Assembly: GCA_030710605.1 (NCBI GenBank) | Contig: CP092863.1 | Span: forward strand, 112,126,841 to 112,190,840 | DNA from: Cordylochernes scorpioides | Taxonomy: Eukaryota; Arthropoda; Arachnida; Pseudoscorpiones; Chernetidae | Direction: 5' to 3' | DNA length: 64,000 nucleotides | Notes under the pieces: model-generated | What the model saw: only the letters and a program-made list of their open reading frames with translations | Database searches by the model: none | Told to the model about the DNA's origin: nothing | Program-made: the position numbers and the translations under genes | Shown: positions 4,347 through 47,500 of the stretch, one piece after another | How the letters are laid out: every line of letters begins with the position of its first letter | Numbering within the stretch: position 1 is the stretch's first letter

Positions 4347-7300
4347 GTAAGTTGATTTTTTAAATGTTTTTTTTTTTGTTGTTGTTGTTGTTTTTATCTA
4401 ATGAGCATTAATTGTACTCGTAGACAAAACTTAAGGAAGTTGTACCTTTTAGCATGTATATCGGGATTGAGACAATAACTCTGAAAGATACACTCATGGA
4501 CAAAACTTAAGGAAGTTGTACCTTTTAGCATGTATATCGGGATTCAGACAATAACTCTGAAAGATACACTCATGGACAAAACTTAAGGAAGTTGTACCTT
4601 TTAGCATGTATATCGGGATTGAGACAATAACTCTGAAAGATACACTCATGGACAACACTTAAGGAAGTTGTACCTTTTAGCATGTATATCGGGATTCAGA
4701 CAATAACTCTGAAAGATACACTCATGGACAACACTTAAGGAAGTTGTACTTTTTAGCATGTATATCGGGATTGAGACAATAACTCTGAAAGATACACTCA
4801 TGGACAACACTTAAGGAAGTTGTACCTTTTAACACGTATATCGGGATTCAGACAATAACTCTGAAAGATACACTCATGGACAACACTTAAGGAAGTTGTA
4901 CCTTTTAGCATGTATATCGGGATTGAGACAATAACTCTGAAAGATACACTCATGGACAACACTTAAGGAAGTTGTACCTTTTAACACGTATATCGGGATT
5001 CAGACAATAACTCTGAAAGATACACTCATGGACAACACTTAAGGAAGTTGTACCTTTTAACACGTATATCGGGATTCAGACAATAACTCTGAAAGATACA
5101 CTCATGGACAACACTTAAGGAAGTTGTACCTTTTAGCATGTATATCGGGATTGAGACAATAACTCTGAAAGATACACTCATGGACAACACTTAAGGAAGT
5201 TGTACCTTTTAACACGTATATCGGGATTCAGACAATAACTCTGAAAGATACACTCATGGACAACACTTAAGGAAGTTGTACCTTTTAGCATGTATATCGG
5301 GATTGAGACAATAACTCTGAAAGATACACTCATGGACAACACTTAAGGAAGTTGTACCTTTTAACACGTATATCGGGATTCAGATAATAACTCTGAAAGA
5401 TACACTCATGGACAACACTTAAGGAATTTGTATCTTTTAGTATGTATATCGGGATTGAGACAATAACTCTGAAAGATACACTCATGGACAAAACTTAAGG
5501 AAGTTGTACCTTTTAGCATGTATATCGGGATTGAGACAATAACTCTGAAAGATATTACAGTGACCTTTATTGAAGATACACGAGATAGCACCAAGTGTGA
5601 ACAGCCTCTGTGTCTCCTTCAAATAAACAGACGACCATCGACATCAAAGACTTTCCACTTAAGTTTTGTGTATGAGTGTATTTAATGATTTTTGAGCCCC
5701 GATGAATGCATAAATGGAATAAATACAAAGCGCTATATACATTGTACTGTTGGAGGGGGATGGGTGGCCAGGGAATCATCGCCGGGTGAGGCCAGGAGAG
5801 CCGGGATGTAGAGGAGGGGGGGGGGGGGGGGGGGGGGGCAGGGTGGTGATCCGCGGAGATCAGAGGGAGACGGGTCCAATAGTATTGAGCCCAAGGATGA
5901 CCGTGGACAGACCGCAACGCTCAGTGTTCCAGGGTACAGTGCCACGACAGCGTCAGAGGTGGTCGCATATGCAGGGCCGGTCGGTAAAACCGTTAAGCCA
6001 GTGAGTTCCTGTTCCAAAACTTTATTAGGTACCGCTCAACAAGAACAACCTAGTTTTTGATCATTACAACAATGAATGTGAAGGTTATTCACATATTAAA
6101 TGTTAACGTGGGATTCAATCCTGGTTCATGACTGTCGGGAATCGAGGGTGTTACCCACTAGTCCACCGACGTTTTTTTATATGAAATCAGTGAGTTCCAG
6201 TTCCAAATAACTTCATTAGGTGCCGCTCAAAGTCAGTGAGTTCCTTTTAACTTATATATATATACACGATTTTATAACATATATAAAAGCGTCACATGTA
6301 TTTTTTTTTATTATAAAATCCTGTACTTATATAAGTTGAAGGTAGAATTGAGAAATAAGCATTCCCTTGAGGAGATTGACTGAGAATCACTAAAACATCG
6401 AGAATTAAATAAACAATTAGTTAAGGTAGCTGTATATTTTCCAAACTAACTTCCAATCAACAAATGATATTCAAAAATGTATTTCATTTGCGTTTTTATC
6501 AATTTGCGATCGCTTATATTGTCGCGCGCTGCCCCTCTGGTTCAACGCGACAACGCCGCTTCTTCCTTTCTTATAGGAAATGAAATCATTTAAACACGAA
6601 TATTTCTTTTATATACAAACTTCTACTGTCCTTACTGAGATTGAAAATTATATTTATACGATTATACACACGCGCACAAAGACGTTATTAAGACACACAG
6701 ATATCTCATTACAACGATATCCTCACAATGATCAATCATCTTCTTCTTCTTTCTTATCTCAAAGCCATGATAATCATGGTGGGTAGTTAGCGACTGCTCT
6801 TATACTGTAAGTGCACCACATGTCTACACATGTGAAAAGCAGTTCGACTTTGCACTTACAAATATGCCAGAGCCCCGTTTGGTTACTTGCACTCGCTGGT
6901 GGGGATGGACTTTTGCAAGAATCGGGGGCCATTGGAGCATTTTTTTAAACAGAAAATAGTGTCCAATGCGGGAATCGAACCCGGGTCGTAGTGGTCGAAA
7001 ACCAAACGGTTTAACCAGCCTTCCACCGACCCCCAATGATCAATCATGTAGTGAAGGACTTATATAGGGACAGAGCAACCACTCGATATATATTTATAGA
7101 TTATAAATAAATGGTTTGTTGGCTTTTAATATAAAGCGCTAAAGGAGTAACTCAGATGTTGTTACATAGAGTGGAGGAAATAAGGAAAGGCGAGGAGAGT
7201 AGGATGACATGGCAATTTTGATTCAAACCACTACATCTTATTTACATATAAATTGAGATAGGAAAAAGCACGAAAGCTGATTTTTTTTTTTTCAAATATA

Positions 7301-10300
7301 AAATGTGATTTTTTTAATTCTCGGGATATTTGCGTTAATACAGTGTTATTCATTGCAATTACACTCATAGACAAAACTTGAGAAAGTTGTACCTGTTAGT
7401 ATTGTATATTGGGATTCAGACAATAACTCTGAAAGATATTACAGTGACCTTTATTTGAAAACAAAGTGTGAACAGCCTCTGTCTCCTAAAAAAAAAACAC
7501 GATCGTCGATATCATAGACTTTCCAACTTCCTTAAGTTTTATCCATGAGTGTATATTTTAGAACCAAAGTATATTGATAATATTTATAATTAAAAATGAT
7601 TAATATAAATACTGTCAAACCTCCCTAATTCGGGTTTAGAGATTGGATGCTTTGGAGAATTAAGATAAAATTAACTTGATAATTAATTAAACTTAATATA
7701 ATTAACTTAATTTCGCGCGAGCGCGAAAAGTCAAAATACGAGAGAGAAACATTGTGTGTGTTATAAGTATAATTTTATATTGCTAACTATTTGCATACGG
7801 CTTGTTGCCCGTTTGTAATTCGCCTAGATTGGGCAATATATATACACACACACCTATATGCTGTTTTGGATAACGCCTCGTTACTCTTGTAGATACGCCT
7901 TTTGGTAGATGACTTAGACACTTTTTGGTAGATGTCTCTCCGTACTTAATGACACCGCTAAGTATTGTGGTTGTGTTACAGGATACGCCTACACACGTCT
8001 ACCTAGTCATGGAGGTAAGTTGTGTGACCATATTTATCTTTTTACAGTGAAACACAGTAAGCAATGTGCCCATCTATTTATATCTCACTGTATAGAAACT
8101 TACACTTTTGAACACTTTCGCCACTATTCACTACACCTCATGCTAGTTATCTCTATTTACCAAAAATCTAAATATCTCCCACGCTTGTGAACGTTTGTTC
8201 GGCTGTACAACTACTAAAATAGGAAGGATACAGAGAAGATTAGCATGGTCGTTGTGATACCAGTTCGGCGGTACAACTACTACAATAGGAAGGATACAGA
8301 GAAGATTAGCATGGCCCCTGTGATACCAGTTCGGCGGTACAACTACTACAATAGGAAGGATACAGAGAAGATTAGCATGGCCCCTGTGATACCAGTTCGG
8401 CGGTACAACTACTACAATAGGGAGGATACAGAGAAGATTAGCATGGTCCCTATGATACCAGTTCGGCGGTACAACTACTACAATAGGAAGGATACAGAGA
8501 AGATTAGCATGGTCCCTGTGATACCAGTTCGGCGGTACAACTACTACAATAGGAAGGATACAGAGAAGATTAACATGGTCCCTGTGATACCAGTTCGGCG
8601 GTACAACTACTACAATAGGAAGGATACAGAGAAGATTAGCATGGTCCCTGTGATACCAGTTCGGCGGTACAACTACTACAATAGGAACGATACAGAGAAG
8701 ATTAACATGGTCCCTGTGATACCAGTTCGGCGGTACAACTACTACAATATGAAGGATACAGAGAAGATTAGCATGGTCCCTGTGATACCAGTTCGGCGGT
8801 ACAACTACTACAATATGAAGGATACAAAGAAGATTAGCATGCCCCTTGTGATACCAGTTCGGCGGTACAACTACTGCAATAGGAAGGATACAGAGAAGAT
8901 TAACATGGCCCCTGTGATACCAGTTCGGCGGTACAACTACTACAATATGAAGGATACAAAGAAGATTAGCATGCCCCCTGTGATACCAGTTCGGCGGTAC
9001 AACTACTACAATAGGAAGGATACAGAGAAGATTAGCATGGCCCCTATAATACCAGTTCGGCGGTACAACTACTACAATATGAAGGATACAAAGAAGATTA
9101 GCATGCCCCCTGTGATACCAGTTCGGCGGTACAACTACTACAATAGGAAGGATACAGAGAAGATTAACATGGCCCCTGTGATACCAGTTCGGCGGTACAA
9201 CTACTACAATAGGAAGGATACAGAGAAGATTAGCATGGCCCCTGTGATATCAGTTCGGCGGTACAACTACCACAATAGGAAGGATACAGAGAAGATTAGA
9301 ATGGCCCCTGCGCAAGGATGGCACGCAAAATCGTGAAGCGTTCTAAATATCTCCCCTATTTTTTGTGTAACTGGAGTGTGTGGAAACAATAAAGTTGACG
9401 ATTCGAGAAATAAACGTGGCAGTTTGGTTCCATATCAATTTACAGAGCACGGGGGTATGAAAAGTTCGACCTTTGACCTCATAGGGGACACCCCGCCTGG
9501 GGAAGAGACTGGGAGCTTATTTAAAGAGAGTACAGGTATCAGAGAGTATCATCGTACTGGGTGCAATCTCATTGCTTGGACGGGTCATCACGTAGCTTCC
9601 ATTTTGCACCCATTGCCTGCCTTCACATTTCCCTCAACGAGTCATTCACCAATCCCGACATTGTCGATTTTTGCTGCTCTGCTGTTGAAATGAAAGAGGA
9701 GTAAATTGTAAGGCTTTGTCACGAGTCATCAGTGAACAATATATATAGAACTTATCATAATCACAAAAAAGGGACGAAGAAGAAAAAAAAAAGACAACAA
9801 AGAACAGAAACAAAAGGAAAAGAGCTTTTTTTTTGTTGTTGTTGTTGTTTTTTAAAAAATAAAGATTTTTTTTATTAAAATAGTAATAATCTTGTGTTAT
9901 AATAAGCTATATGTAAATAAAAATATGATGATTAAGTTTATTAAGTAAGTTTTGATATTTTTAATTACATAAGACACAGTAGAACATAAACGATGAGTGG
10001 AACTAAGGAATGCTCTTTTTTGGCTTGTTTGAATTTTAAAGTGTTTTTCTCCCAATGTTCTCCGGCTTTAGTTGATACCGGCGATTTTGGTACATCTAAT
10101 TCGTCATTTATATAAGAAATGAATCATTTCAAAAGAATGATTCAAGCTTGGACAGATGACTCTTTGCAACATAAGGTGAGTGGAACTAAGAAATGCTCCT
10201 TTTGTCGTTGCGGCTTAATTGATACAGACGATTTTGGTACATCAAATTCGTCATTTATATAAGAAATGAATCATCTTAAAAGAATGATTCAATCTTGAAC

Positions 10301-13300
10301 AGAGGACTCTTTGCAACATAAACGATGAGTGGAACGCGCTCGGCTCAGAAGTGTGGGGGTACGCAGCGAGGACTTCCATATTTAGAGACAGCAGTTCCGA
10401 CGAAGATCCCAAAATACCATCATCCTCCTGGATGAGAGAGACAGAGTTACTTCCATATCTTCTGCTGCCATTCTTTCACTTCCGGGATCGTCTGCCTTCT
10501 TTCGTCTTCTTCTCTCACATTTCAACTCTTTCTCTCTTCATTTCGGGGAGTTCCCTGGGAGTCAGTTGAGTAGTGATCTAAACCGTTGGTTTTTTACCGC
10601 TACGACCCGGGATCGAATCCCTCATTGGGTACTTTTTTTTTCGATAAGGTTCCAAAAATTTCGTGTTTTCTTTTATTATTATTTTTATTACTTGGCGAAT
10701 TATATTGTAGCGTAGAAATCAAGTCTTGGAATATCTCAAGATGTAAAAGTATTTATTGATGAAGTCAGTACGACCAGTCGACAATTATCAACCCAACTAT
10801 CTACAGCTAGAGAATATCGAGCAAGCAAGCTAGGTAACTAAATGATGATTTTAGTAAATGTAAAATTTTAAATCTGTTTCCAAATATTTTCGTTGAATAA
10901 TTAAATTAAATAATAAATTATTTCTTCTCCACAATATTATTACGGCGAATACATAATACTACATAATACAATTAATGTATACATAATACAAAGATATTAT
11001 ACATAACGGCGAATAATAATATTGGTATTTCAATTTTTTTGCAAGTGTTTATGAACTTTTGGGAAAAACTTGTAATAATAATTTTTAAAAATGCTCCAAT
11101 GGCCCCTCCCGATTCTTGAAAAAGTCCATCCCCACCAGCGAGTGCAAGTAACCAAACGGGGGCTCTGACACACTTGTAAATGTAAAAGGTCGAACTTCTT
11201 TCTACATGTGTAGACATGTGGTACACTTACAGTAAAAGTAGTTGCTAACTACCGACCATGATTATTATGAATGTTGACCCAGTCCAAGCAATGAGATTGC
11301 ACCCAGTACGATGATACTCTCTGATACCTGTACTCTCTTTAAACAAGCTCCCAGTCTCTTCCCCAGGCGGGGTGTTCCTAATGGAATCAAAGGTCGAACT
11401 TTTCATGTCTTCCCGTGCTCTGTAAATTGATATGGAACCAAACTGCCTATTTCTCGAATCGTCAACTTTATTTTATTGTTTCACACACTCCAGTTACACA
11501 AAAAATAGGAGAGATATTTAAAACACTTCACGATTTTGCGTGTCATCCTTTGCGTAGGGACCATGCTAATCTTCTCTGTATCCTTCCTATTGTAGTAGTT
11601 GTACCACCGAACTGGTATCACAGGGACCATGCTAATCTTCTCTGTATCCTTCCTATTGTAGTAGTTGTACCACCGAACTGGTATCACAGGGACCATGCTA
11701 ATCTTCTCTGTATCCTTCCTATTGTAGTAGTTGTACCGCCGAACTGGTATCACAGGGACCATGCTAATCTTCTCTGTATCCTTCCTATTGTAGTAGTTGT
11801 ACCGCCGAACAAGCGTACACAAGCGTGGGAGATAGATTTTTATACCACGTTTTATCTCTAGAGCAGAAATGGCGAGGTATATATTTATATAGAGAGACAT
11901 TAACTAAGGTTAATTGCGAATTTGTCCATTCGTTTATTGGGGGCTGAACAGTAATACAAGGTAATAAGACCAAATCCAAATAAATTAATAGTGTGTGATG
12001 TTTCGGTAACAGCGTTGTTGCCATCATCAGACAAAAGTACTGAATGCATTTAAGTATTGAAAGTACTGAATGTAACTACACTTCCACAGTTTATTCTTTT
12101 GTCTGATGATGATAACAACGCTGTTACCGAAACGTCACACACTATAATCGGTATTTATCGGTAACAGCGTTGTTACCATCATCAGACAAAAGTACTGTGG
12201 AAGTGTAGTTACATTCAGTACTTTCAATACTTATGTAGATTCAGTATACTTTTGTCTGAAGATGGTAACAACTCTGTTACCGAAACGTCTTACACTATTT
12301 ATTCGGATTTGGTATTGTTATCTTGGTGTTTTAATCGATAATCCAAATTGTACCTTATCATTTTATAAGTAGCAAATGAAAACATTAAAACGCGAATGTT
12401 TCCTTCACACATAAATCCAACTTCTACTGTCCTTACTGCAATGAAAAAATATATTAGAAGGGCTTGACAGCCGTTTCACCAATCTAATCTACCAGACCGC
12501 ATCTTTAGAGCTCTAATACTGAATTGGATCATTCTGCTTTGATATGCTATACTGTAGGCTGGAATCTTAGAAATGGTATTTAAGCAAACAACAAAAATAT
12601 TTATTAAGACCTTTCAGTCTTATACAGATTCTCCAAGTAGAAATGTAGGATACATACAGGAATAACAGTAATAGTACCAGTAATAAGCAATGTACAACAA
12701 AAATATTTATTAAGACATTTTAGTCTTATACAGATTCTCCAAGTAGAAATGTAGGATACATACAGGAATAACAGTAATAGTACCAGTAATAAGCAATGTA
12801 CAACAAAAATATTTATTAAGACATTTTAGTCTTATACAGATTCTCCAAGTAGAAATGTAGGATACATACAGGAATAACAGTAATAGTACCAGTAATAAGC
12901 AATGTACAACAAAAATATTTATTAAGACATTTTAGTCTTATACAGATTCTCCAAGTAGAAATGTAGGATACATACAGGAATAACAGTAATAGTACCAGTA
13001 ATAAGCAATGTACAACAACAACAAGCTTTATTAAGACCTTTCAGTCTTATACAGATTCTCAAAATAGAAATGTAGGGTACATGTAGGAATAACAGTAATA
13101 GTACCAGTAATAAGCAATGTACAACAACAACAAGCTTTATTAAGACCTTCCAGTCTTATACAGATTCTCCAAGTACACAGAAATGTAGGGTACATACAGG
13201 AATAACAGTAATAGTACCAGTAATAAGCAATGTACAACAACAACAAGCTTTATTAAGACATTTTAGTCTTATACAGATTCTCCAAGTACACAGAAATGTA

Positions 13301-23503: not shown

Positions 23504-26500
23504 GAAAGTAAAAAAAATTGAGACTTTTAACATGTTTAGAGTTTAGATAGCCTTGGATTTATCTGTCGTATATATGCAACAGGGGCTAATGTTCTATTTA
23601 CATATACATTCCACTGTATATGAAGGGACAGCTCTATACTAACTCTCCGAAAATGAATTTAACTTAAATACAATCATTACCAAAACTTAAGGAAGTTGTA
23701 CCTTTTAACATGTATATCGGTATTGAGACAATAACTCTGAAAGATACACTCATGGATAACACTTAAGGAAGTTGTACCTTTTACCATGTATATCGGTATT
23801 GAGACAATAACTCTGAAAGATACACTCATGGATAACACTTAAGGAAGTTGTACCTTTTACCATGTATTTCAGGATTGAGACAATAACTCTGAAAGATACA
23901 CTCATGGATAACACTTAAGGAAGTTGTACCTTTTACCATGTATATCAGTATTGAGACAATAACTCTGAAAGATACACTCATGGATAACACTTAAGGAAGT
24001 TGTACCTTTTACCATGTTTTTCAGGATTGAGACAATAACTCTGAAAGATACTCATGGACAAAACTTAAGGAAGTTGTACCTTTTAGCATGTATATCGGGA
24101 TTCAGACAATAACTCTGAAAGATACACTCATGGACAAAACTTAAGGAAGTTGTACCTTTTAGCATGTATATCGGGATTGAGACAATAACTCTGAAAGATA
24201 TTACAGTGACCTTTATTGAAAACACACGAGATAACCAAAATTGCCTCTGTCTCAAAGACTTTCCACTTCTTTTGTCCATGAGTGTATATCATAGCTTTCA
24301 GAATGTTGTCATCTAGTGCCTGGCATTCAAGGAATAGAGAGAGGAAAAAAGTTGTTGAATGTGTGTTTTTTAAACTCATTTGTATATATGAATCTGAATA
24401 CATTGCAGTAAGGTCTGTGTAGATATAATATTTGATGATATTATTGAAAAGAAACACATTGCCAGTAAATTTATTTGTTACAAATTTTATCGATATATGA
24501 ATCTATTTGTGAGAAGTTTGCGTTTCAACCTTATAATGAAAATAAACTTTTTTCGATAAGGTACAATTTGGATTATAGATTATAAACACAAGGTAAATAA
24601 ATAGTGTGTGATGTGAAGATGGTAACAACACTGTTACCGAAACATCACACACTATTTATTTGGATTTGGTGTTATTTACCTTGTGTTTATAAACTTTTTT
24701 CCTTCACCCCCTTGTACTTTCTATTATATTTATGTGAGTTAGGTTATTTTTTAATCATTTTTTATAGATCTTGAGAAGTTCTCCACTGATTCCCTGCTTT
24801 TCTATCTTGAAGATGGTATCCCCATGTACCAAGATAGGCACCTCTCCCTTTAAAAATGCATTAAAATAATGTATTTTGTTTATCACTTCAGTATAAAATG
24901 TAATAATGGGATAGAGATTTAGCCAGTGTTTTGTCAAATTCAGATTAAAAAGTAAACAACATCAAGGTAATAAGACCAAATCCAAATATATAGTGTGTGA
25001 CGTTTCGGTAACAGCGTTGTTACCATCTTCAGACAAAAGTACTGAATGAGAATAGAAGTACGAAATGTCACACACTATTTATTTATTTATTTGGATTTGG
25101 TCTTATTACCTTGTGTTTATAATCTATAATCCAAATTGTCCCTTATCATGGATGTGGTCTTGTTACCTTGTGTTTATAATCTATAATCCAAATTGTACCT
25201 TATCATGGATGTGGTCTTGTTACCTTGTGTTTATAATCTACTAGCCGAATGACCCGGGCAATGCCCGTGTTTTACCCGATTGAATGTTTTTATTCAAATA
25301 CTATTTGTTACAATTATAAATTGGCGCCTTAAATAAATGCATATATTAGTTAATAACTATAGCCTATGTGCTTTATTTGTCTATGTACTGTTGGCTTCCA
25401 TAGGCGTCTCATACTGGGAAAAGGAAAGAGAGGATTCCATTTAGTTATTAACTAATATATGCATTTATTTAAGGAGCGACCCGCTCCAAACCAATAGTTA
25501 CAAAAACCAAAAAGCGAGTGGGGGGGGGGGGGGGCAAAGTCAAAAACAAAGTGTCTCGCGTAGTGGCGGCGCCATCGTAGCTACGTGATCGTAGCCAACC
25601 AATAGGAGAGGCCATTCAAAAAAAAAAAGCAAACGGTGACAGAGATGATGACGCTCGTAACTGTATATAGAATAATCCAAATTGTGCCTTATCAAGTAAA
25701 CATCCATAGTTTGGTGCTATGGCCCTCATCAGTAAACTATTCACTTTCCCAACTTCCCTAACAAACTGTGGGTGTGTTCCAGTATTGCAATGGAGGAGAT
25801 TTAGCAGAGTATTTGCTCGGTAAGTAGACACTCTCTACTGTGAATACATAATTGATAATAGAAATACAGTTAAACCTGTCTATAGCGCCCCCTCTAAATA
25901 GCGCCTCCATCTCTATAGCGCCTGATTTTAAATACGTAGTACGATGCAATTTACATTAAAAGTGACCTGTCTATAACACTCCCTCTCTATAGCACCCTAT
26001 TTTGGTGAGTCCCAAGAGGGGGCGTTATAGATAGGTTTAACTGTATATGTTAATATACGAAGCAATAACACGCCATCTATACATAAACCAATGAAAACAA
26101 GACGCGAATGTTTCTTTTCACAAATAAATCAAACTTCTACTGTCCTTACTGTGATGAAAAAATATTGGGAGGTCTTGGCTAATCATTGGTAAAGCCCTCC
26201 CAATATTTTTTCATCGCAGTAAGGCCAGTAGAAGTTTGATTTATTTGTGAAACATTCACATCTTAATGTCTTCACTATATCACGATAGAGAAGACAAGTA
26301 TTGCAAAATGTGTCAATTGATTTTTCAAGTGGCAATTTACAAGCATGGTAAGGGGTGATGACTATGCAAATATTTATGTGATGATAAACAACAGAGTATT
26401 CAAAAATAATTATTCAGTGACAATATATATATGTGGTAATATATTTCAATATATATACACTATATTTACATATATATATATAACATAATTATAGTGTAAC

Positions 26501-29500: not shown

Positions 29501-32500
29501 GATAAAACTGGCGAAATCACCGCTGGAAGGGTTCATTACTGATGAGCCACAGGCCCTCCCATTAATTTATCATTAAAGAAAGAGCAGTATGATAAAGCAA
29601 AATTTGGATTAGAGATTATAGCTACAAGAAAATAAAACCTTATCCAAATAGTTGTGTGTGAACATATCGGTAATAGCATTGTCACCATCATCAGACAAAA
29701 GAATAAATGTATATAAAAGAATAAATCATTTATTATTTTGTCTGATGATGGTAACAACACTGTTACCGAAATGTCCCACACTATTAATTTTATTTGGATC
29801 AGGTCTTATTTTCTTGTAGAAAGAGCAGTAGAAAGTTGTTTCACCGTTTAAAAAGAATCATACACTTCTAAAATAGTTTCTATCCTCATAATCTTATCTC
29901 AACCACAATCAAGCTTGCTTCTATCATTAAACAAGCCATTTATGAAGATTCTGAGATGGATTTTCTGGGAGCATCTAATAGAACCATCCTCTGATAACCT
30001 CTCTTGGGTACATGACCTTTGAGTCGTCTACTTTCCTCTCAGCAGAGTGGAGTTGCCATTGTGTCTGCTGCGAGTGTTAAGTGCCGCCATTGTGTCTGCC
30101 AGGAATAGAGATGACGACATTGTCGGCCAAGCTGGTGCTAATATCTCTCAATCTTTCCTTTAATATTGCCTAACTACCCTCCATGTTATGACACTTCCAC
30201 ACAGAGCACCACCTGCCTTGGTACAACCACATGTTCTTCTGATTCATCACCACATCGTTTCGATGCAATCTTGATTAATATGGAAATTTTGCCTTGAAGA
30301 AAATTGAGGTCCGCCTTTGCCGGTCCCAAGCCTGGATGAAAAAAGGAGGAGGGGGAGCAGTAACAAGCTCACTAAAAAAACCTGGGCTCAGCTGGCCCGG
30401 CTGATAGTACCCTGTAAGGGCTCCAGGGATACAGGATGAGTCTGTACTCCATGTTAGGAGCAGCTGCACATGGCGTCTGTTCCTCATGTCAGAGGCGGCC
30501 ATTTCTTTTGGAGCTAAGTCGGCCTGCCACTAAGTAGTGCTCACAGTCTTAATGACAAAGGCAGATGCATTCTACTTCACCCAGTGTGGAGATAAGAAAG
30601 AAGAAGATGCTATAAAGGTCACCTCTCCAGTCAAAATTGATGCTAAAAACGAATCACCATCTATTGACCGTATCCGCAAACTAGCGGACTCAGGTCGGTG
30701 ATAAAGCCATAACACCAGGTTAGCAAATTGAGTAGAGTCCACCTGGAGACCATGGTTTCAAACAAATGGCTTTATCAGCCTAGGGCGTACTTTATTTCTT
30801 TTTTTTTTTTTGCTTATCCCTAGTACACTTGGTACAGACCATGATAATCATGGTGGGTAGAGGTTGACGATAATGGTCAAATATCATCATTTTACAACGC
30901 CCATTTTACTGGATACTACACCGAATATATAGAGGATATAAGAAATTCAGTCTAATATATATACAATAGTAGGGTGGTCTGGAGATTATACTGATGAAAC
31001 ACCATTCTGGGAGTATTCACTACTGATGAGTCAGGTCCTCTCTCTCTTTCAATTTTTATTCATTGCAGGTCTGTAGAAATACCTTTTCAGTTATACACTC
31101 TCATGGACAAAACTTAAGGAAGTTGTACCTTTTAGCATGTATATCGGGATTCAGACAATAACTCTGAAAGATACACTCATGGACAAAACTTAAGGAAGTT
31201 GTACCTTTTAGTATGTATATCGGGATTGAGACAATAACTCTGAAAGATACACTCATGGACAAAACTTAAGGAAGTTGTACCTTTTAGCATGTATATCAGG
31301 ATTCAGACAATAACTCTAAAGATATTACAGTGACCTTTATTGAAGACACACGAGATAACCAAGTGTGTGAACAGCCTCTGTCTCCTTAAAAGAAAATATA
31401 GATGACTGGGAACATCAAAGACTTTCCACTTTCTTAAGTTTTGTCCATGAGTGTATATAAATCACTAATGGGATTGTTGGACCTTTATTTTTTGTGGAAG
31501 AATCAGAAGTCATTGAAATGATTTATTATTGTTAGAGGATTGTGTTAACCTCTCACTTATTAGTACTCTAATTGAAAATAATTAACAATGGAACGAATTA
31601 AGTCTTCTTCTTGACAAACATCATCTTCTTCTTTCTTATCTCCACTCAATCATATTAGGGTGTAAAGCTTGTCAAGTTTGAAATTGACAACCATCGTGAT
31701 TGGGTGAAGTAGAATGTGTCTACCTTTGTCATTAAGACTGGAAGCCCTACTGAGTGGCAGGCCGACTTAGTTCCAAAAGAAATGGCCGCCTCTGACATGA
31801 GGAATAGACGCCATGTACAGCCGCTCCTAACATGGAGTACAGACTCATCCTGTATCCCTGGATTAGGAGCCCTTACAGGGTACTATCAGCCGGGCCAGTT
31901 GAGCTCAGGTCTTTTAGTGAGCTTGTTACTGCTCCCCTTCCTCCTTTTTCATCCGGGCTTTGGACTGGAAAAAAATGGAGTTAATGAATAAAGTAATTTT
32001 AACTAATATCAAAAAATATAAAAAAATGAAAGAAAACATGCAGGTATCACACATATAGGTAAACAACTAAACTAAACAAAGAGGAAGATACACAAGGTAA
32101 CCCAAGTGTGAACAAAATTACCTCTGTCTCCTTCAAAAAAATAGATGATCGGCAACAACAAAGGCTTTCCACTTCCCTAAGTTTTGTCTCCATGAGTGTA
32201 CACCAAGTTACTACAAAGCCTCATTCATAGTGGTACTAATGGACAGAACTTAAGGAAGTGGAAAGTCTTTGATGTTGACTGTAGTTTTTTTTTTTTTGGA
32301 AGCAGAAGCAATTTTGTTCACACTTGGTTACCTCGTGTGTCTTCAATAAAGGTCACTGTAATATCTTTCAGAGTTCACAAGGTAATAAGGCCAAATCCAA
32401 ATAAATAAATTGTGTGTGACATTTTGGTTACAACGCTGTCACTGAAATGTCATACACTATTTATTTATTTGGATTTAGGGTCTTATTACCTTGTGTTTGT

Positions 32501-35500
32501 AATCATAAATCCAAATTGTGCCTTACAATCTTTCAGAGTTATTGTCTCAATCCCGATATACATGCTAAAAAGGTACAACTTCCTTAAGTTTTGTCCATGA
32601 GTGTATCTTTCAGAGTTATTGTCTCAATCCCGATATACATGCTAAAAAGGTACAACTTCCTTAAGTTTTGTCCATGAGTGTATCTTTCAGAGTTATTGTC
32701 TCAATCCCGATATACATGCTAAAAAGGTACAACTTCCTTAAGTTTTGTCCATGAGTGTATCTTTCAGAGTTATTGTCTCAATCCCGATATACATGCTAAA
32801 AAGGTACAACTTCCTTAAGTTTTGTCCATGAGTGTATCTTTCGGAGTTATTGTCTCAATCCCGATATACATGCTAAAAAGGTACAACTTCCTTAAGTTTT
32901 GTCTCCTTGAGTGTACATCACAAGTTACTACAAGGCCTCATTCATATTTAGATGTCTGTTGTTGTTCCATGGAAACAAAAATTAGAATGAAATCTCTCAT
33001 TGTGCCATGGGAACATGTGTTTGACAGGTGGGTAGGGGTGAATGTGCCATGTGCCACGTGCAGCACATTTTGATAATTGATGTGGTTGTCATCCAGTCAC
33101 CCTCTCTCTCTAGCAAGTGTTCCTCCACATTTAAATAGAGTTCCAGAAATCACTGTCACTACATTTTACTTCTCAATAGAAACTTGGGATCTCTGTGTGT
33201 TTGTGGCTTTGAGGTAGGTGATTATGATTTTAAAAAGGCTTAACTAGATATGTGGAAGAAGAAAAATATTATTTTTCTAAATGTTTCAAAGGATTTTTTT
33301 TTTCATCAATTTGCTGTTCAAAAATTTTAATACAGTAGAACCTCCATGAGAAGACACTTGTGCTAGAGGACACCTCTCTACAGAGGACAGTTTTCATTTG
33401 CAAAATTATCTTTTTTTTTTTTTTAACTATTTATCAACTCTCTGGTAAGAAGACACCTCTCTCCCTAAAGGACACTTTGGCTTTGTAATTAGGTGTTCTT
33501 TACAGGGAGGTTCTACTGTAGTAATTTCTTCTTGTAGATTGTGTGCAAACAACTTTATAATTGGTCAAAATTCAATATGGTTGAAATATATTCAAAGGAT
33601 CTTCACTCATGTACATAACTTAAGGTAGTTTACCGTTCAGAATGTATATCAGGATTAAGACAATTACTATGAAAGATACACTCATGGACAAAACTTGAGG
33701 AAGTTGTACCTTTTAGCATGTATATCGGGATTCAGACAATAACTCTGAAAGATATTACAATGGCCTTTATTGAAGACACACGAGATAACCAAGTGTATAC
33801 AGCTTCTGTCTCCTTCAAAAACAAATCGACGACCAGCGACATCAAAGTTTTGTCAATAAGGGTACTTATATACAATATGATTGTTCCCATACTTGATGTG
33901 AAAAATAGCAAGAGCTGATTTAAAAATACCTATTTTTATTACTTAATCCAAGTACATATGGTACAGACCATGATAATCATGTGTATAGTTAACAACTGCT
34001 ATTACTGTAAGGGACTTACATGTCTACACATTTTGTTCCAGGCCCCTGAAGTAATCATGTCTCTGAAGTACGATGCCAAGGCAGACCTGTGGAGCATCGG
34101 CACCATTGTCTTTCAATGTCTGACGGGGAAGGCACCTTTCCACGTAAGTGTACATCCCCTCCCTGCTGTAGCTTCCACTTACAACTGTGTCATGTCCACA
34201 GGCCAACACACCTCAAGCTCTTAAATCCTTCTACGAGCAAAACCCTAAGCTGAAACCAAAGTAAGTACCATCCTTATCCCTAGTACATGTGGTACAGGCC
34301 ATGATAATCATAGTTGGTAGAAGTAGGCAACTTCTTTTACCCTAAGTGCACCACATGTCTACACATGTGAAAAGCAGTTCGACTTTTGCACTTACAAATG
34401 TGTCAGAGCCCTGTTTGATTACTTGCACTTGCTGGTAGGGTTGGACTTTGGGGGCCATTGGAGCATTTTTTTTTTTTAATCAGAAAAAAGTGCTCAATGT
34501 GGGAATCGAACCCAGGTCGTAGTGGTTGAAAGGCAACAGTTTACAGCTGCTAGTTGTGACTTTACCTAACAGCAACAACAACTTTCCCAATAGAGAGATA
34601 GTTCTATATAGATAGTGTTTACCTAGGCCACCAAAATTATGAATTAGATTTGGTCTCTCCTAGTTTACAGCTGTTAGTTGACAACTTTAACAACAGCTCA
34701 CACAATAACAGCAACAACAACTTTCCCAATAGAGAGATAGTTCTATATAGATAGTGTTTACCTAGGCCACCAAAATTATGAATTAGATTTGGTCTCTCCT
34801 AGTTTACAGCTGTTAGTTGACAACTTTAACAACAGCTCACACAATAACAGCAACAACAACTTTCCCAATAGAGAGATAGTTCTATATAGATAGTGTTTAC
34901 ATAGGCCACCAAAATTATGAATTAGATTTGGTCTCTCCTAGTTTACAGCTGTTAGTTGACAACTTTAACAACAGCTCACACAATAACAGCAACAACAACT
35001 TTCCCAATAGAGAGATAGTTCTATATAGATAGTGTTTACATAGGCCACCAAAATTATGAATTAGATTTGGTCTCTCCTAGTTTACAGCTGTTAGTTGACA
35101 ACTTTAACAACAGCTCACACAATAACAGCAACAACAACTTTCCCAATAGAGAGATAGTTCTATATAGATAGTGTTTACATAGGCCACCAAAATTATGAAT
35201 TAGATTTGGTCTCTCCTAGTCTACAGCTGTTAGTTGACAACTTTAACAACAGCTCACACAATAACAGCAACAACAACTTTCCCAATAGAGAGATAGTTCT
35301 ATATAGATAGTGTTTACATAGGCCACCAAAATTATGAATTAGATTTGGTCTCTCCTAGTTTACAGCTGTTAGTTGACAACTTTAACAACAGCTCACACAA
35401 TAACAGCAACAACAACTTTCCCAATAGAGAGATAGTTCTATATAGATAGTGTTTACATAGGCCACCAAAATTATGAATTAGATTTGGTCTCTCCTAGTTT

Positions 35501-38500: not shown

Positions 38501-41500
38501 TTTTTTCTTTCGTTTTTTAATGTGCTAAGCGTATTTACGCAAGTTTGGCCTTAAATACCCATTTCTTGGTTTTTCAGGAAGCCATTGGGATCAAAAATTA
38601 TTTTTTGGTCGCAATGGTTCAGCCTACTCCACGCTGACGAGCGCCAAAAAGCGCGAAACGCGTTCGTGGATGGCTTTTCTTGATTTATCAAGAAATTGGG
38701 TTGGCCAAATATCAGGGAACAGGCTAAATCAATGAATAGTTGATTTCTGTTCCACCAGATGGCGCTCTGCCTTCTGAAAAGCACATGTGCTCCTGGTCAG
38801 GATATGCCATTTTTAATATATATATATATATATATATTATTGGGGTTTAAAGCAACTGGGTCGGAACCAGCATCTCTACCAATTTAATATAATACACTGC
38901 GGCCTGTGATTGTAAAACGACACTTGAAGTTACACCGCATGAGTTTCTTTTCAACGAAAAATAAAATTTTTATTTCAAGGTGAAATATCGACTATTTCTA
39001 ACCTTTTTGGATGAGGTATGAAAGGATGAATTATGAAGAGTAATGATGAACTGAAAAATACTTACTCATTACTCTTCATAATTCATCCTTTCATGCCTCA
39101 TCCAAAAAGGTTAGAAATAGTCGATATTTCACCTTGAAATAAAAATTTTATTTTTCGTTGAAAAGAAACTCATGCGGTGTAACTTCAAGTGTCATTTTAC
39201 AATCACAGGCCGCAGTGTATTATATTGTATTATAAGTTACTTTATGTATCATTTACGAACGGAAAAATACGTCCAGGGTAGCCTAGTGGACACGGCATCT
39301 GCCCGGTAAGCGGAACATTGTGGGTTCGATTCCCATCCCTGGACACTTTTATTTTTCCGTTCATCATTACTCTTCATAATTCATCCTTTCATACCTCATC
39401 CAAAAAGGTTAGAAATAGTCGATATTTCATCTTGAAATAAAAATTTGATTTTTCGTTGAAAAGAAACTCATGCGGTGTAACTTCAAGTGTCGTTTTACAA
39501 TCACAGGCCGCAGTGTATTATATTGTATAATAAATAATATTTGTTAAAGCATTATACATTGGGCAAATATTCACTTAGGGAGAACCAAGGTTGATGCCAA
39601 GTATCATTTGATTTTAAAAAAAGCCTTTCAAGACACTCGGGTAATACCCGGTGTTACCCGCGGGTCATGGTACCTCTCCCTTTCTTTTTCCTCTTCTTTC
39701 TTATCTCCACACTGGGTGAAGTAGAATGCGTCTGCCTTTGTCATTAAGACTTGGAGCACTACTCAGTAGCAGGCCATTGACTTAGCTCCAAAATAAATGG
39801 CCGCCTCTGACATGAGGAACAGACGCCATGTGCAGCCGCTCCTAATGGATTAAATAGTTGAAATATAGGTCCTGTCTGAGGCTTCCATAAATTCCAAGAG
39901 GTGGTCTGGTGAGGTCTCTTTGGTCCTCTAGATGGTACATTGTGGGAAGACACCATCCTGGTAGAGGAGCAGTCTTGTATGGCTGCCAGTTTTAAGCCTG
40001 GAAATACAGGTTTCTGCTTGTCTCCCACATTCCAGAATATATCCAGGATTTTGGTTTAGGTACCAATTGTATCATAATAATGCTGTGCAATACGACATAT
40101 TGGTTGCTGGTACTGGGCACATTGAGCAAAAGAGGGCCAAAGTCTGACTGTCATGTGGTGGATAGCCAACCAACAACAGCAGCTCCCTCTCATGGAGACT
40201 TATGGACATTGAGCAAAACTTGCAACTGAGAGGTCTTGCTGGCTAATTCTTTGTTCTTTCTAATCTAATATCTCAAATATATTTTCTATTATTTTTATAA
40301 ATATTTAAACAAAAGGTAATAAGAGCAAATAAATAAATAATGTATGTTGGGTTTGGTCTTATTACCTTGTTGTGTTTCTATAATCCAAATTGTGTCTTAT
40401 CATGATAAATATTTGAGTTATCTTGCTATCTCTAAGTTCATTGCATCTATTTATAAGAAAGGTTATCAGACTTCTACTGGATAAGGTTGGGATGTAAGAA
40501 TCCTCCTCCTGTTATTTAAATATTTGCTGACTTGTTCTCCAGTGTGTGACCCTCTTGACTGTGGTACAAGTGGATTTTGGTCCAGTTCTTTCATCAGTGA
40601 TGAATGTGTGGGAGAGATTTGCAAGGTAGATTCAAAAATGTCTTCTTCTTCTTATAAACAACAAGCTCTCCTCTATCTCAAGAAGTTGAGAAAGCACAGC
40701 ATTCTTATGACCTTGTATACAATTTTGACACTTATCAAATTTGTTGTAAACCTATCTCTCTTAGCTGATACATGTATCCAGTATTAAGGTGACAATGTGT
40801 GTGCGGACTTCCCCAGGATACCAGAGGGAACATCCAAGGAACTGGTGGACCTTCTCCAGAGATTGCTCAGGAGAAATGCCGTGGACAGAATGGACTTTGA
40901 GCATTTCTTCAACCACCCTTTCCTGAAACCTCAGCCTAGGCCTAGTAAGTCCTCTTATCTCTATTGAGGCCATGCTCCTCAAGCTGTTTATAGACGGTGT
41001 TGTTGTTGTTTCTTATCCCCTTGTGTAAAGATTACACAAATTCCATGAGTCCATGCTCCTCAAGCTGTTTATAGATGGTGTTTTTGTTGTTTCTTATCCC
41101 CTTGTGTAAAGATTACACGAATTCCATGAGTCCATGCTCCTCAAGCTGTTTATAGACAGTGTTGTTGTTGTTTCTTATCCCCTTGTGTAAAGATTACACC
41201 AATTCCATGACTCCATGCTCCTCAAGCTGTTTATAGACGGTGTTGTTGTTATTTCTTATCCCCTTGTGTAAAGATTATACAAATTCCATGAGTCCATGCT
41301 CCTCAAGCTGTTTATAGATGGTGTTTTTGTCGTTTCTTATCCCCTTGTGTAAAGATTACACGAATTCCATGAATCCATGCTCCTCAAGTTGTTTATAGAC
41401 AGTGTTGTTGTTGTTTCTTATCCCCTTGTGTAAAGATTACACCAATTCCATGACTCCATGCTCCTCAAGCTGTTTATAGACGGTGTTGTTGTTGTTTCTT

Positions 41501-44500
41501 ATCCCCTTGTGTAAAGATTACACCAATTCCATGACTCCATGCTCCTCAAGCTGTTTATAGGTTGTGTTGTTGTTGTTTCTTATCCCCTTGTGTAAAGATT
41601 ACACAAATTCCATAAGTCCATGCTTCTCAAGCTGTTTATAGGTGGTGTTGTTGTTGTTTCTTATCCCCTTGTGTAAAGATTACACCAATTCCATGACTCC
41701 ATGCTCCTCAAGCTGTTTATAGGTTGTGTTGTTGTTGTTTCTTATCCCCTTGTGTAAAGATTACACCAATTCCATGACTCCATGCTCCTCAAGCTGTTTA
41801 TAGGTTGTGTTGTTGTTGTTTCTTATCCCCTTGTGTAAAGATTACACAAATTCCATGACTCCATGCTCCTCAAGCTGTTTATAGGTTGTGTTGTTGTTGT
41901 TTCTTATCCCCTTGTGTAAAGATTACACCAATTCCATGACTCCATGCTCCTCAAGCTGTTTATAGGTTGTGTTGTTGTTGTTTCTTATCCCCTTGTGTAA
42001 AGATTACACCAATTCCATGACTCCATGCTCCTCAAGCTGTTTATAGGTTGTGTTGTTGTTGTTTCTTATCCCCTTGTGTAAAGATTACACCAATTCCATG
42101 ACTCCATGCTCCTCAAGCTGTTTATAGGTTGTGTTGTTGTTGTTTCTTATCCCCTTGTGTAAAGATTACACCAATTCCATGACTCCATGCTCCTCAAGCT
42201 GTTTATAGACGGTGTTGTTGTTGTTTCTTATCCCCTTGTGTAAAGATTACACCAATTCCATAAGTCCACGCTTCTCAAGCTGTTTATAGGTGGTGTTGTT
42301 GTTTCGTATCCCCTTGTACAAAGATTACACAAATTCCATAAGTTCATGCTCCTCAAGCTGTTTTATGATAAGCAGTGGCCTCTCCCAAAGGTCTTGTTTA
42401 GTTCATCTAATGCAAGCCAAAATGTTGTTCTAGAGCTGCAGGTGCCAAGCTACATTTTGGACAAGTGGGATAGATTGTTATTTTCTATCTTCAATGGCTT
42501 GAGATGGCCTGTTCTAAATCTTGTTAGTGCTGTTTGATGCTGTCTGAGGTTTAGACCTCCTCCTGGGTCTACTCCACTTTGAGTTTTCTTACTTTATTCA
42601 AATGTTTTCTCAAGTTTTCAGGTACTGTAAACCCTTCTACAGGAGCATACAACGGAATCATTTCATGAACTCATGAATTATGTTCTACTGTAGAGAGGTG
42701 TCCTCTAGTGGAGTATGTTCTACTGTAGAGAGGTGTCCTCTCACGGAGTATGTTCTACTGTAGAGAGGTGTCCTCTAGTGGAGTATGTTCTACTGTAGAG
42801 AGGTGTCCTCTTGTGGAGTATGTTCTACTGTAGACCATGACAATTAAATTAATTTTATTGACATCTTGTCAATACATGCAAAAGTACACACTCTGCACTA
42901 TTTAAAAAAAGATAATTATATATATGCATCTTACTATGTACAATGTACATGGCGCCTCTGCCAGCGTTGCAGAGTTTGGTAGAGAATCACCAGCAGGTCT
43001 CCAGTGACACCACACATATCTACGAAGAATACGTAGACCGCGTACTTCGCTGCTGAGGAGATGGTGTGGTCCTTGAGACCAACTGTTCTACTGTAGAGAG
43101 GTGTCCTCTAGTGGAGCATGTTCTACTGTAGAGAGGTGTTCTCTAGTGGGGTATGTTCTACTGTAGACCATGACAATTAAATTAATTTTATTGACATCTT
43201 GTCAATACATGCAAAAGTACACTCTCTGCACTATTTAAAAAAAGATAATTATATATATGCATCTTACTATGTACAATGTACATGGCGCCTCTGCCACCGC
43301 TGCAGAGTTTGGTGGAGAATCACTAGCGGGTCTCCAGCGACACCACACATTTCGACATCTACAAAGAATACGTAGATCGTGTACTTCGCCGCTGAGGAGA
43401 TGGTGTGGTCCTTGAGACCAACTGTTCTACTGTAGAGAGGTGTCCTCTAGTGGAGTATGTTCTACTGTAATCATTTCCCCATCCCCCACATAGCTGTTGT
43501 CTCCATTACCAATAGAAATGTCAGTTTTACATAAGTCTGAATGAAGAGTTTCTGCGCAGGTTCCCCAGTCCCAGTTCCCAAGGCTGCAGCTCCCTACGCA
43601 GCCATCTGGGAGGAAGAAAGGTGTTTGGAGGACCAGCAAAGGCTTGAGGTACGCAAATTAATTAAATAGTAAACAGTAAAATTGAAGCAGCTAAGACGCA
43701 ACTGTTGAGTTTCCCTCATTCAGTAGTTCTATAGCATTACCCTTTCATCCACTTCTCTAGACCTCTTTATCTCTCTTTGTAAGATCAAAAAACTTGCGCA
43801 CAAAATTAAATCCAAAAGACAAAAACCTCTCGCAATCAGTATCTTTTATTATTACAAATAACGGACGCTAGCTTTCGAACAATTAGTTCTTCAACGGGCG
43901 TTTTTACAAAACGAAATCAGATTCTTATTAATATATAGAGGTAATAGAAAAAATATATACAAATATTCGCTCAAAGATATGCTAAAAAGGTAAATTAGAG
44001 AATTGAAAAATAATCAGATATGCAAAAACTTCTTTAAAACTAAATTAAGTTTAAAACTAAGTGGGGAAGGGGGGACATAGCAGAATTCGTTCTTCAAATT
44101 CTTTTAAAAAAGACAGCGGAACTGTTCTGGGACATCTATTCTTCTGTTTATGCTGTCTTTACAACCAGAAACCAAGGATTCCAAAATTAATCTTTCCCCT
44201 TTGTATCTGATGTTGTTGTAATGGCAGATGGGGTTATCCAGATCAAAACTATGTCCTGTGTTTAACGTGTGTTGGTACAGAAGGGATCTGGGGTCTTTTG
44301 AGCTGATATTGTATTTGTGTTCTTTGATTCGGTTTTCGATTTTTCTGCCTGTTTCTCCTACATAAACGGATTCACAATCATTGCAGGCAACCGAATAGAT
44401 CGCGTTGCTTTTATGTTGAACATCATGTTTAACTCCTGGTTTGGTAATGGGGTTCCTCAGTATATGTCCTATTGTGCTTGTGCTGCGATAGGTGAACTGA

Positions 44501-47500
44501 ATTCCATATTTCCTCAAATCATGGACTATTCGCTGATTGGTAGGGGAGAAATCTATAAAACCCCTGGTTCTGTTGACTGTAAGGGTAGCCTTTTTGAACG
44601 GGATGAATGTATGTTTTCTTATAAAGTCTGGTGGGTATCCAAATGTCCGTAGATTATTGTAAATATTCTCTTTTTCTTTTTCTTTTAAAGCTCGAAGGGA
44701 ACAATGGGTATGGAGCCTCTTAGTTAGGGTTTTGACAACTGATATTTTGTAAGAGACTGGACTGTAGGAGTTAAACGGGATATATGATGGTTTGGCGGTA
44801 TCTTTGTAATAGACAGTTGTTTGGAAACTGTTCCTATTTCTAAAAATGAGGGCATCCAGATATGGTAAGGTGTGGTTTTCTTCTCTTTCTATTGTAAACT
44901 TAATTTCTGGGTGGTAACTGTTAAGAGTGTCAAGGATGGCTTGGTCCGCTCCTAGGTGATATTCACAATATATATCATCAATATATCGTCGCCATATCTT
45001 AATCCCCAGATTCTCTCGACTGTTAATCCAGCCATCTATTGTCAGTAGAACAATTTCTGCTACTGTAAGGAAAGGGGGCTACCCATGGGTGACCCCTTAA
45101 TCTGCCTGTAAATCTGGTTCTGATATGTAAAATTATTAATGGAGAGGCAAGCCTTGACCATGGTACAAATTGTATCAATATCGTCGAGTTCTGCCTTCAC
45201 AAGTATATCCCGTAGGTTGCTGATTATAAGATCATGAGGGAGGCAGAGGAAGAGGGATTTCACATCGAAGGAACAAATCCTACTGTTAGGGTCGGGTATA
45301 GATCTTCTGATATCACCTATAAAATCTGCTATGTTGTTAATTGAATAGATGTTCCGTGAACGGACATGGGGCGACAAAAGCGAAGACAAAAAACGAGATA
45401 CCACTATAGCCGGCGAAAGGTGGTATGCGACTATTGGTCTTAATGGGATATCTTCCTTGTGCAACTTCGGAAGGCCATATATGTAAGGAATATCTGTGTT
45501 ATTGTTTATGAATGACTTGTATTGTTCATCAGTGATCTTTATGTTCTTCCTGAGAGATGCTAACGTTTTCTTAAAAAGAGCTATGGATTTAGAATTTTCG
45601 GCTTTAGATATGGGTTCAAAAATCTCTTTGTCTTCCAATGTTGTCTCCATCTTATTCTGGTAATCCAATCTGTTCATAATGACCGTACTACCTCCCTTGT
45701 CTGCTCTGCAAACCACCAATTCCTTATTGTTTTTTATGTTTTTAATCGCTTGGAAGAATTGTTTCTTAGGTTTTATATCAAAAGTACCCCTTCTGTTAAT
45801 TTTAGCGGCGACTATCAGTTTCGGTCGGTATTCTGTTTTTTAGGCCATTTCGTAGTAAATTGTCTTCGCTTTTGTCGCCCCATGTCCGTTCACGGAACAT
45901 CTATTCAATTAACAACATAGCAGATTTTATAGGTGATATCAGAAGATCTATACCCGACCCTAACAGTAGGATTTGTTCCTTCGATGTGAAATCCCTCTTC
46001 CTCTCCTCCCTCATGATCTTATAATCAGCAACCTACGGGATATACTTGTGAAGGCAGAACTCGACGATATTGATACAATTTGTACCATGGTCAAGGCTTG
46101 CCTCTCCATTAATAATTTTACATATCAGAACCAGATTTACAGGCAGATTAAGGGGTCACCCATGGGTAGCCCCCTTTCCCTTACAGTAGCAGAAATTGTT
46201 CTACTGACAATAGATGGCTGGATTAACAGTCGAGAGAATCTGGGGATTAAGATATGGCGACGATATATTGATGATATATATTGTGAATATCACCTAGGAG
46301 CGGACCAAGCCATCCTTGACACTCTTAACAGTTACCACCCAGAAATTAAGTTTACAATAGAAAGAGAAGAAAACCACACCTTACCATATCTGGATGCCCT
46401 CATTTTTAGAAATAGGAACAGTTTCCAAACAACTGTCTATTACAAAGATACCGCCAAACCATCATATATCCCGTTTAACTCCTACAGTCCAGTCTCTTAC
46501 AAAATATCAGTTGTCAAAACCCTAACTAAGAGGCTCCATACCCATTGTTCCCTTCGAGCTTTAAAAGAAAAAGAAAAAGAGAATATTTACAATAATCTAC
46601 GGACATTTGGATACCCACCAGACTTTATAAGAAAACATACATTCATCCCGTTCAAAAAGGCTACCCTTACAGTCAACAGAACCAGGGGTTTTATAGATTT
46701 CTCCCCTACCAATCAGCGAATAGTCCATGATTTGAGGAAATATGGAATTCAGTTCACCTATCGCAGCACAAGCACAATAGGACATATACTGAGGAACCCC
46801 ATTACCAAACCAGGAGTTAAACATGATGTTCAACATAAAAGCAACGCGATCTATTCGGTTGCCTGCAATGATTGTGAATCCGTTTATGTAGGAGAAACAG
46901 GCAGAAAAATCGAAAACCGAATCAAAGAACACAAATACAATATCAGCTCAAAAGACCCCAGATCCCTTCTGTACCAACACACGTTAAACACAGGACATAG
47001 TTTTGATCTGGATAACCCCATCTGCCATTACAACAACATCAGATACAAAGGGGAAAGATTAATTTTGGAATCCTTGGTTTCTGGTTGTAAAGACAGCATA
47101 AACAGAAGAATAGATGTCCCAGAACAGTTCCGCTGTCTTTTTTAAAAGAATTTGAAGAACGAATTCTGCTATGTCCCCCCTTCCCCACTTAGTTTTAAAC
47201 TTAATTTAGTTTTAAAGAAGTTTTTGCATATCTGATTATTTTTCAATTCTCTAATTTACCTTTTTAGCATATCTTTGAGCGAATATTTGTATATATTTTT
47301 TCTATTACCTCTATATATTAATAAGAATCTGATTTCGTTTTGTAAAAACGCCCGTTGAAGAACTAATTGTTCGAAAGCTAGCGTCCGTTATTTGTAATAA
47401 TAAAAGATACTGATTGCGAGAGGTTTTTGTCTTTTGGATTTAATCTCTCTTTGTAAATACACACACAGTAGAACTACCTCTCTGTAAAGGTCAAAATCTA

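Follow-up and report, generated by a model that had tools for sequence, protein, structure and literature searches.

The 66-bp arrays described here are not one odd locus; most probably they constitute a family retroposed from U6, in which the U6 5′ half forms an internal VNTR. Counted by their junctions, they form a dispersed minisatellite of about 15,000 units, which would amount to about 1 Mb if each unit were 66 bp long.

Structure of the U6 arrays in the window

The window, the whole stretch of 64,000 nucleotides that was analysed (G000:C1:112126841–112190840), belongs to a genome of 2.62 Gb in 24 contigs. Its first array (8191–9343, + strand; locus L021) contains 17 cores with all 16 spacings equal to 66 bp, and Tandem Repeats Finder detected a period of 66 bp with 16.9 copies and 95% matches at 8197–9310. 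Comparison with the Rfam U6 covariance model (105 positions; gathering score, 44 bits) revealed that 11 of the 16 partial units on the + strand reached the gathering score on their own (44.0–50.2 bits; E, 1.2e-9 to 9.2e-8) and that five fell below it. The partial units align to model positions 1–62 or 1–65, and only the 17th unit extends into the U6 3′ half (9247–9352; positions 1–105; 87.4 bits; E, 6.3e-21). Both programs therefore bear out the initial annotation, which had described head-to-tail copies of the U6 5′ half closed by a near full-length U6. The junction that it called constant, cctgtgataccagttcgg, indeed keeps the same register throughout, with scattered substitutions, and the array end that it placed at 9343 stands as the position where U6 stops, with the 14-nt duplication at 9342–9355 overlapping there (Table 1). 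A chance likeness to U6 was rejected because the Rfam scores of the units are far above chance, and an unrelated satellite because the repeated sequence is that of U6 and some arrays (e.g., L001) contain canonical U6 units.

The initial annotation lacked a second array, located at 11818–11512 on the − strand, which consists of four units with the junction of the first array and a full U6 at its end; in the two window arrays, full-length matches to the U6 model were confined to the last copy of each (87.4 and 88.6 bits). The 3′ flanks of the two arrays match each other in inverted orientation with 324 bits and 90% identity, compared with 92 bits and 71% for the second-highest score, and thus the two arrays are one insertion duplicated in inverted orientation, whose duplicates now hold 17 and 4 units. 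A large transposon with the arrays as terminal repeats was rejected, since the inverted copy is the sole close match of the 3′ flank, the 27 others being weak.

Table 1 Features of the two U6 arrays and their flanks in the window
Feature	Position	Strand	Remark
Left target-site duplication TCTAAATATCTCCC	8167..8180	+	14/14 identity to 9342–9355; none of 21 mismatched partners scores as well
First unit, with a diverged U6-like 5′ end replacing the internal junction	8181..8256	+	Exact first base uncertain
15 internal 66-bp units, U6 positions 1–65 joined at CCTGTGATACCAGTTCGG	8257..9246	+	
Last unit, running on into the U6 3′ half	9247..9343	+	Rfam; last bases inside the duplication
Right target-site duplication TCTAAATATCTCCC	9342..9355	+	
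3′ flank of the first array	9353..9590	+	Inverted copy at 11272–11509
3′ flank of the second array	11272..11509	−	Inverted copy of 9353–9590
Full-length U6 copy closing the second array	11512..11618	−	Rfam U6 1–105, 88.6 bits
Three 5′-half units of the second array	11619..11818	−	Rfam U6, 47.7–48.4 bits each

Other tandem repeats are also present in the window. A unit of 76–77 bp occurs in both orientations at 4416–5554, 23685–24200, 31100–31324, 32528–32903 and 33604–33754, and a unit of 81 bp at 40970–42363 and 58901–59677; the junction of the 76-bp unit has 33,234 exact copies genome-wide. The U6 family may be one instance of a wider tendency of this genome to form arrays. Apart from these repeats, the reading frames at 44104–45839 (−) and 45970–47145 (+) resemble, by their motifs, a Penelope-like element in two orientations; Pfam detected GIY-YIG in the − strand frame at 44104–45078 (1.6e-5) and gave no match in that at 45060–45839.

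Size and composition of the family

A genome-wide count of the junction, which the initial annotation had proposed, yielded 9,381 exact copies of a 24-nt sequence, and none for the reversed-pattern control. When a 62-nt stretch spanning the junction was searched with up to 3 mismatches, the number of unit junctions was 14,648 (control, 0). The start of the first unit (≤1 mismatch) was found at 513 places, with single-unit copies and repeated whole copies counted in, and the variant-type U6 3′ end (≤3 mismatches) at 504 places, among which canonical copies may be included since canonical U6 differs from this pattern by exactly 3 mismatches. Family members lie on at least 21 of the 24 contigs among the matches listed and, together with the 513 starts, this shows the high-copy, dispersed character of a SINE. 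The sequence directly 3′ of U6, however, differs between arrays, so that the common or LINE-related 3′ tail of SINEs is missing.

Among 20 sampled starts, 8 belonged to single-unit copies, which carry the same variant sequence as the arrays, and 12 to arrays (10 of them independent). The number of truncated U6 units per array reaches more than 40 in the family, and some arrays (e.g., L034 and L042) lack the U6 3′ end. Partial units in tandem followed by a longer terminal unit, the arrangement of SINE-derived satellites, are a feature of the family. The arrays were sampled from the best matches of a genome-wide search, the first listed junction places, and selected start and 3′-end places; L081–L090 were picked for a close start and 3′ end or for clustered starts, and L091–L110 were taken in listed order from the starts on C1 and C2 outside the loci already sampled. 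This sample is biased to young copies and low-numbered contigs.

Target-site duplications and 5′ starts

Analysis of the edges of 22 arrays revealed target-site duplications with a score of at least 8.5 in 13 of them, compared with 10 of 462 mismatched pairs, and no permutation out of 100,000 reached the observed mean score; the other nine arrays have no duplication of score 8.5. This cut was picked from four, of which 7.5 gave 13/22 against 24/462 and 9 gave 12/22 against 4/462. The best duplications were found in L082 (18/18), the window (14/14), L033 (13/13), and L030 and L097 (11/11 each). Overlapping views of one array, the inverted copy in the window and arrays for which both edges had not been fetched were excluded, and L082, inside which a second copy lies, was counted by its outer edges; the 3′ anchor of L099 is misplaced, and the alignment of L085 is gapped and weak. 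A looser test on 55 rows, which also comprised real U6 genes and tandems of whole U6, yielded scores of at least 7.5 in 10 of 21 arrays versus 13% of other pairs (1 of 20,000 permutations, for the arrays). For single-unit copies, all eight rows scored at least 8 and none of 40,320 permutations did as well; one row is a U4–U6 chimera, L096 was omitted, and one of the near-identical L083 and L084 was used, L083 being weak evidence because it sits in a CT repeat.

The exact U6 5′ start (GTACNCGCTTGTTCGG) is present in 9 of the 22 arrays and, with one difference, in 4 more; the start of the window’s array has 3 differences, and no recognisable U6 5′ start was found in 4 of the 22. Thus, as in U6 retropseudogenes, target-site duplications flank many of the copies and part of the arrays start at the RNA 5′ end, which is broadly the pattern that insertion of RNA copies gives.

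Array turnover and unit variation

As in VNTR retroposons, unit number changes at the DNA level: besides the window pair with 17 and 4 units, two further pairs of duplicated arrays, each from one insertion, hold 17 and 13 units (L091/L092) and at least 22 and 10 units (L093/L094). Comparison of 822 of the 848 units from 44 loci, after 26 units with more than 14 differences had been dropped, revealed 2.84 differences over 54 sites within loci (3.07 when loci were equally weighted) and 3.52 between loci. Sites 39 and 62 were polymorphic within 17 and 21 of 40 loci, respectively, and three or more unit haplotypes, defined by three sites, were found in 11 of 39 loci. Two explanations are compatible with this diversity within loci: the arrays may have been diverse when they were inserted, or loci may have exchanged units.

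The idea that long blocks of units are inherited in order was rejected, as only three shared pairs were counted between independent loci, with a shuffled mean of 2.19 and 176 of 500 shuffles reaching this number; because unit order is not shared beyond chance, the inheritance that can be followed is that of the junction. Some arrays contain both canonical and variant units. Inspection by eye indicated that the units at either end mostly match the internal ones in type, on which ground an invasion of canonical monomers was rejected, with L001, L026, L036, L053 and L093 as exceptions.

U4–U6 chimeras and other array types

A U4 5′ part lies directly upstream of the 7-unit U6 array of L001 (1998–2072, − strand; 47.5 bits; gathering score, 46), and in L107 a U4 5′ half (56–139; 77.5 bits) immediately precedes a single U6, this chimera being flanked by the duplication TCAACATGTTTAA / TCAACATTTTTAA. 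In a search for the U4–U6 junction of L107, 3 of 40 scored matches spanned both U4 and U6; two of them, 39 kb apart on C2, are perhaps duplicates, and one is located at G000:C22:39600155–39600256. These chimeras suggest template switching by reverse transcriptase as the source of the fusions between a 5′ half and a full-length copy. A reverse transcriptase that reached the U6 5′ end and jumped inside another RNA would generate both the U4–U6 chimeras and a U6 dimer.

Arrays of other types were also found. L095 has 75-bp units joined at ACACGC, a 6-nt microhomology that occurs twice in U6, and L105 is a U6 array of 59-bp units with another junction. L086–L090 and L011 consist of whole U6 copies head to tail, most with adjoining flank bases, at periods of about 99–156 bp. 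Other small-RNA sequences neighbor some copies: 5S rRNA (L096:1–94; 51.4 bits) is located just upstream of a U6 copy into which, as judged by eye, a repeat with a tRNA-like end intrudes, and an antisense U6 lies upstream of U6 in L013.

Core conservation, promoters and folding

Variability in the ACAGAGA box was 0.020 per site against a background of 0.017, ranking 15th among 35 seven-nt windows, and that in the AGC triad was 0.039, above background. Selection on the catalytic core was rejected on these values. A TATA at −29 to −31 was absent from all 27 arrays, whereas 9 of 18 canonical U6 loci have one at −29 or −30, and the arrays thus lack the TATA box near −30 of a U6 gene. The TATA word occurs elsewhere within −45 in 6 of the 27 arrays, including L099 at −32 and the second array of the window, which has TATAAA at −25. 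The promoter of the L012 type was found at 10 loci, of which L012 and L014 have a single unit, as do the other eight judging by their length, with part of each reading N; another type of U6 promoter was found at 37 places, the downstream sequence of which was viewed for part. A master array with a U6 promoter was not found among the 27 arrays and the 10 L012-type loci. Clusters of U6 loci with a common upstream sequence, some with TATA at −30, are located at G000:C20:27.70–27.90 Mb and 65.7–66.1 Mb and at C6:1.6–10.2 Mb. In folding analysis, the unit at 9181–9246 was less stable than every one of 200 shuffles; for the last two units folded together, this was true of 198 of 200.

Discussion

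The arrays are probably dispersed U6 retropseudogenes whose internal 5′-half VNTR came about through a template switch, insertion and turnover at the DNA level. While copying a U6 RNA that it had entered at the 3′ end, a reverse transcriptase would have reached the U6 5′ end and switched to another U6 RNA near position 61, producing a dimer of a 5′ half and a full-length copy with the 66-bp junction. U6-derived RNA, presumably either single-unit or already carrying the junction, would have been inserted at many sites by a mechanism of the non-LTR retrotransposon type, which the target-site duplications support, and unit number was altered at the DNA level after insertion, as the window pair demonstrates, whose two copies of a single insertion hold 17 and 4 units. 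A more elaborate reading, possible but rather doubtful, is a self-lengthening U6 retroposon, in which multi-unit U6 RNAs, begun at the U6 transcription start of a putative master array, would be retroposed and the dimer and the U4–U6 fusions would derive from reverse-transcriptase jumps within the U4/U6 particle. If true, it would represent a mobile family with a spliceosomal particle as its template.

Alternatively, single-unit U6 retropseudogenes may have come first, with the array then spreading by gene conversion, ectopic recombination or circle re-insertion and with no multi-unit RNA involved. This order of events would accord with the 8 of 20 sampled starts that are single-unit and of the same variant sequence, the fast change of unit number in duplicates, the mixture of canonical and variant units in some arrays, the unit order unshared between loci, and the lack of a promoter-bearing array among those examined. 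We nevertheless consider it unlikely: spread of this kind would have to act at many sites, given members on at least 21 of the 24 contigs among the matches listed, and the end units are mostly of the internal type, as insertion of whole elements predicts, although the type is also represented among single-unit copies. The 11 of 39 loci with three or more haplotypes are compatible with either reading. Independent local growth of each array from its own U6 pseudogene, by the minisatellite growth that the initial annotation had offered as the plain alternative, is improbable, despite the independent array types (75-bp units in L095, 59-bp units in L105 and whole-U6 copies in L086–L090) and the richness of the genome in dispersed tandem arrays. 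The main junction contains bases that U6 lacks at the corresponding position and recurs unchanged thousands of times, whereas independent growth would give differing junctions; for the 66-bp type, local growth only is ruled out by this shared junction. Growth from one U6 pseudogene is an incomplete account, as the junction is present in thousands of copies and at arrays with target-site duplications of their own.

The initial annotation had further envisaged a transcript offering many ACAGAGA/AGC modules to the splicing machinery. A functional gene of this kind could draw on the exact U6 5′ end in 9 of 22 arrays and on the tandem consensus, whose longest T run is two, so that a Pol III terminator would not stop the transcript inside the array. 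The U6 3′ half is needed for full pairing with U4, however, and the units stop before the U6 3′ stem-loop; moreover, the RNA of the unit that was folded has lower stability than its shuffles. Since ACAGAGA is conserved no better than its surroundings, AGC is worse, and a TATA at −29 to −31 is found in 0 of 27 arrays, function in splicing is unsupported and such a gene is very improbable; the arrays are most likely without function in splicing. Assembly readily collapses or duplicates tandem arrays, and exact unit numbers may be wrong, but an assembly artefact is the least credible origin of all, because many loci have different flanks and duplications of their own.

The U6 5′-half array family is a variant of snRNA retropseudogenes, SINE-derived satellites and VNTR retroposons. 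SINEU elements, another comparison, reportedly have U1/U2 heads. The family resembles SINEU (Kojima 2015, as presented in PMC8010984) in being a mobile family from a spliceosomal RNA; the U6 arrays have no common tail after U6. In the parts of PMC4476161 considered here, U6 retropseudogenes are reported together with U6 chimeras from LINE template switching that is not restricted to one LINE clade, and LINE-1 chimeras with U1–U6 are cited in a portion of PMC13174262. U6-derived copies, target-site duplications and template-switch chimeras are shared with the former; however, the chimeras described there join U6 to LINE or SINE, whereas the present family repeats a truncated U6 and has U4 or U6 upstream of U6, and the words ‘tandem’ and ‘dimer’ are absent from the main text of PMC4476161. 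The squamate SINE-derived satellites, as far as described in the sections of PMC10702118 used here, likewise repeat part of a small-RNA retroposon with a longer terminal unit to the element end, but the source here is U6 itself and not a SINE, and 13 of 22 arrays have a duplication of their own. SVA/LAVA elements, according to the relevant passages of PMC4432496, share internal variable tandem repeats, remodelling at the DNA level and duplicates that differ in unit number; SVA has a non-random unit order across insertions, whereas shared order was undetected in the U6 arrays. U snRNA genes, U6 included, form tandem multigene families in grasshoppers (PMC7754599, in part). Among the titles and abstract openings of the open-licence papers that our searches listed, we found no U6-derived tandem repeat, satellite or SINE like the 5′-half arrays.

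The family joins two kinds of repeats that are usually separate, in that a small-RNA retropseudogene has turned into a dispersed minisatellite. With duplications of their own, three pairs of duplicated arrays and the U4–U6 chimeras, the arrays make template switching at the U6 5′ end and turnover at the DNA level testable in one genome. They could also mislead the annotation of U6 in this species, as well as small-RNA studies that use U6 for normalisation.
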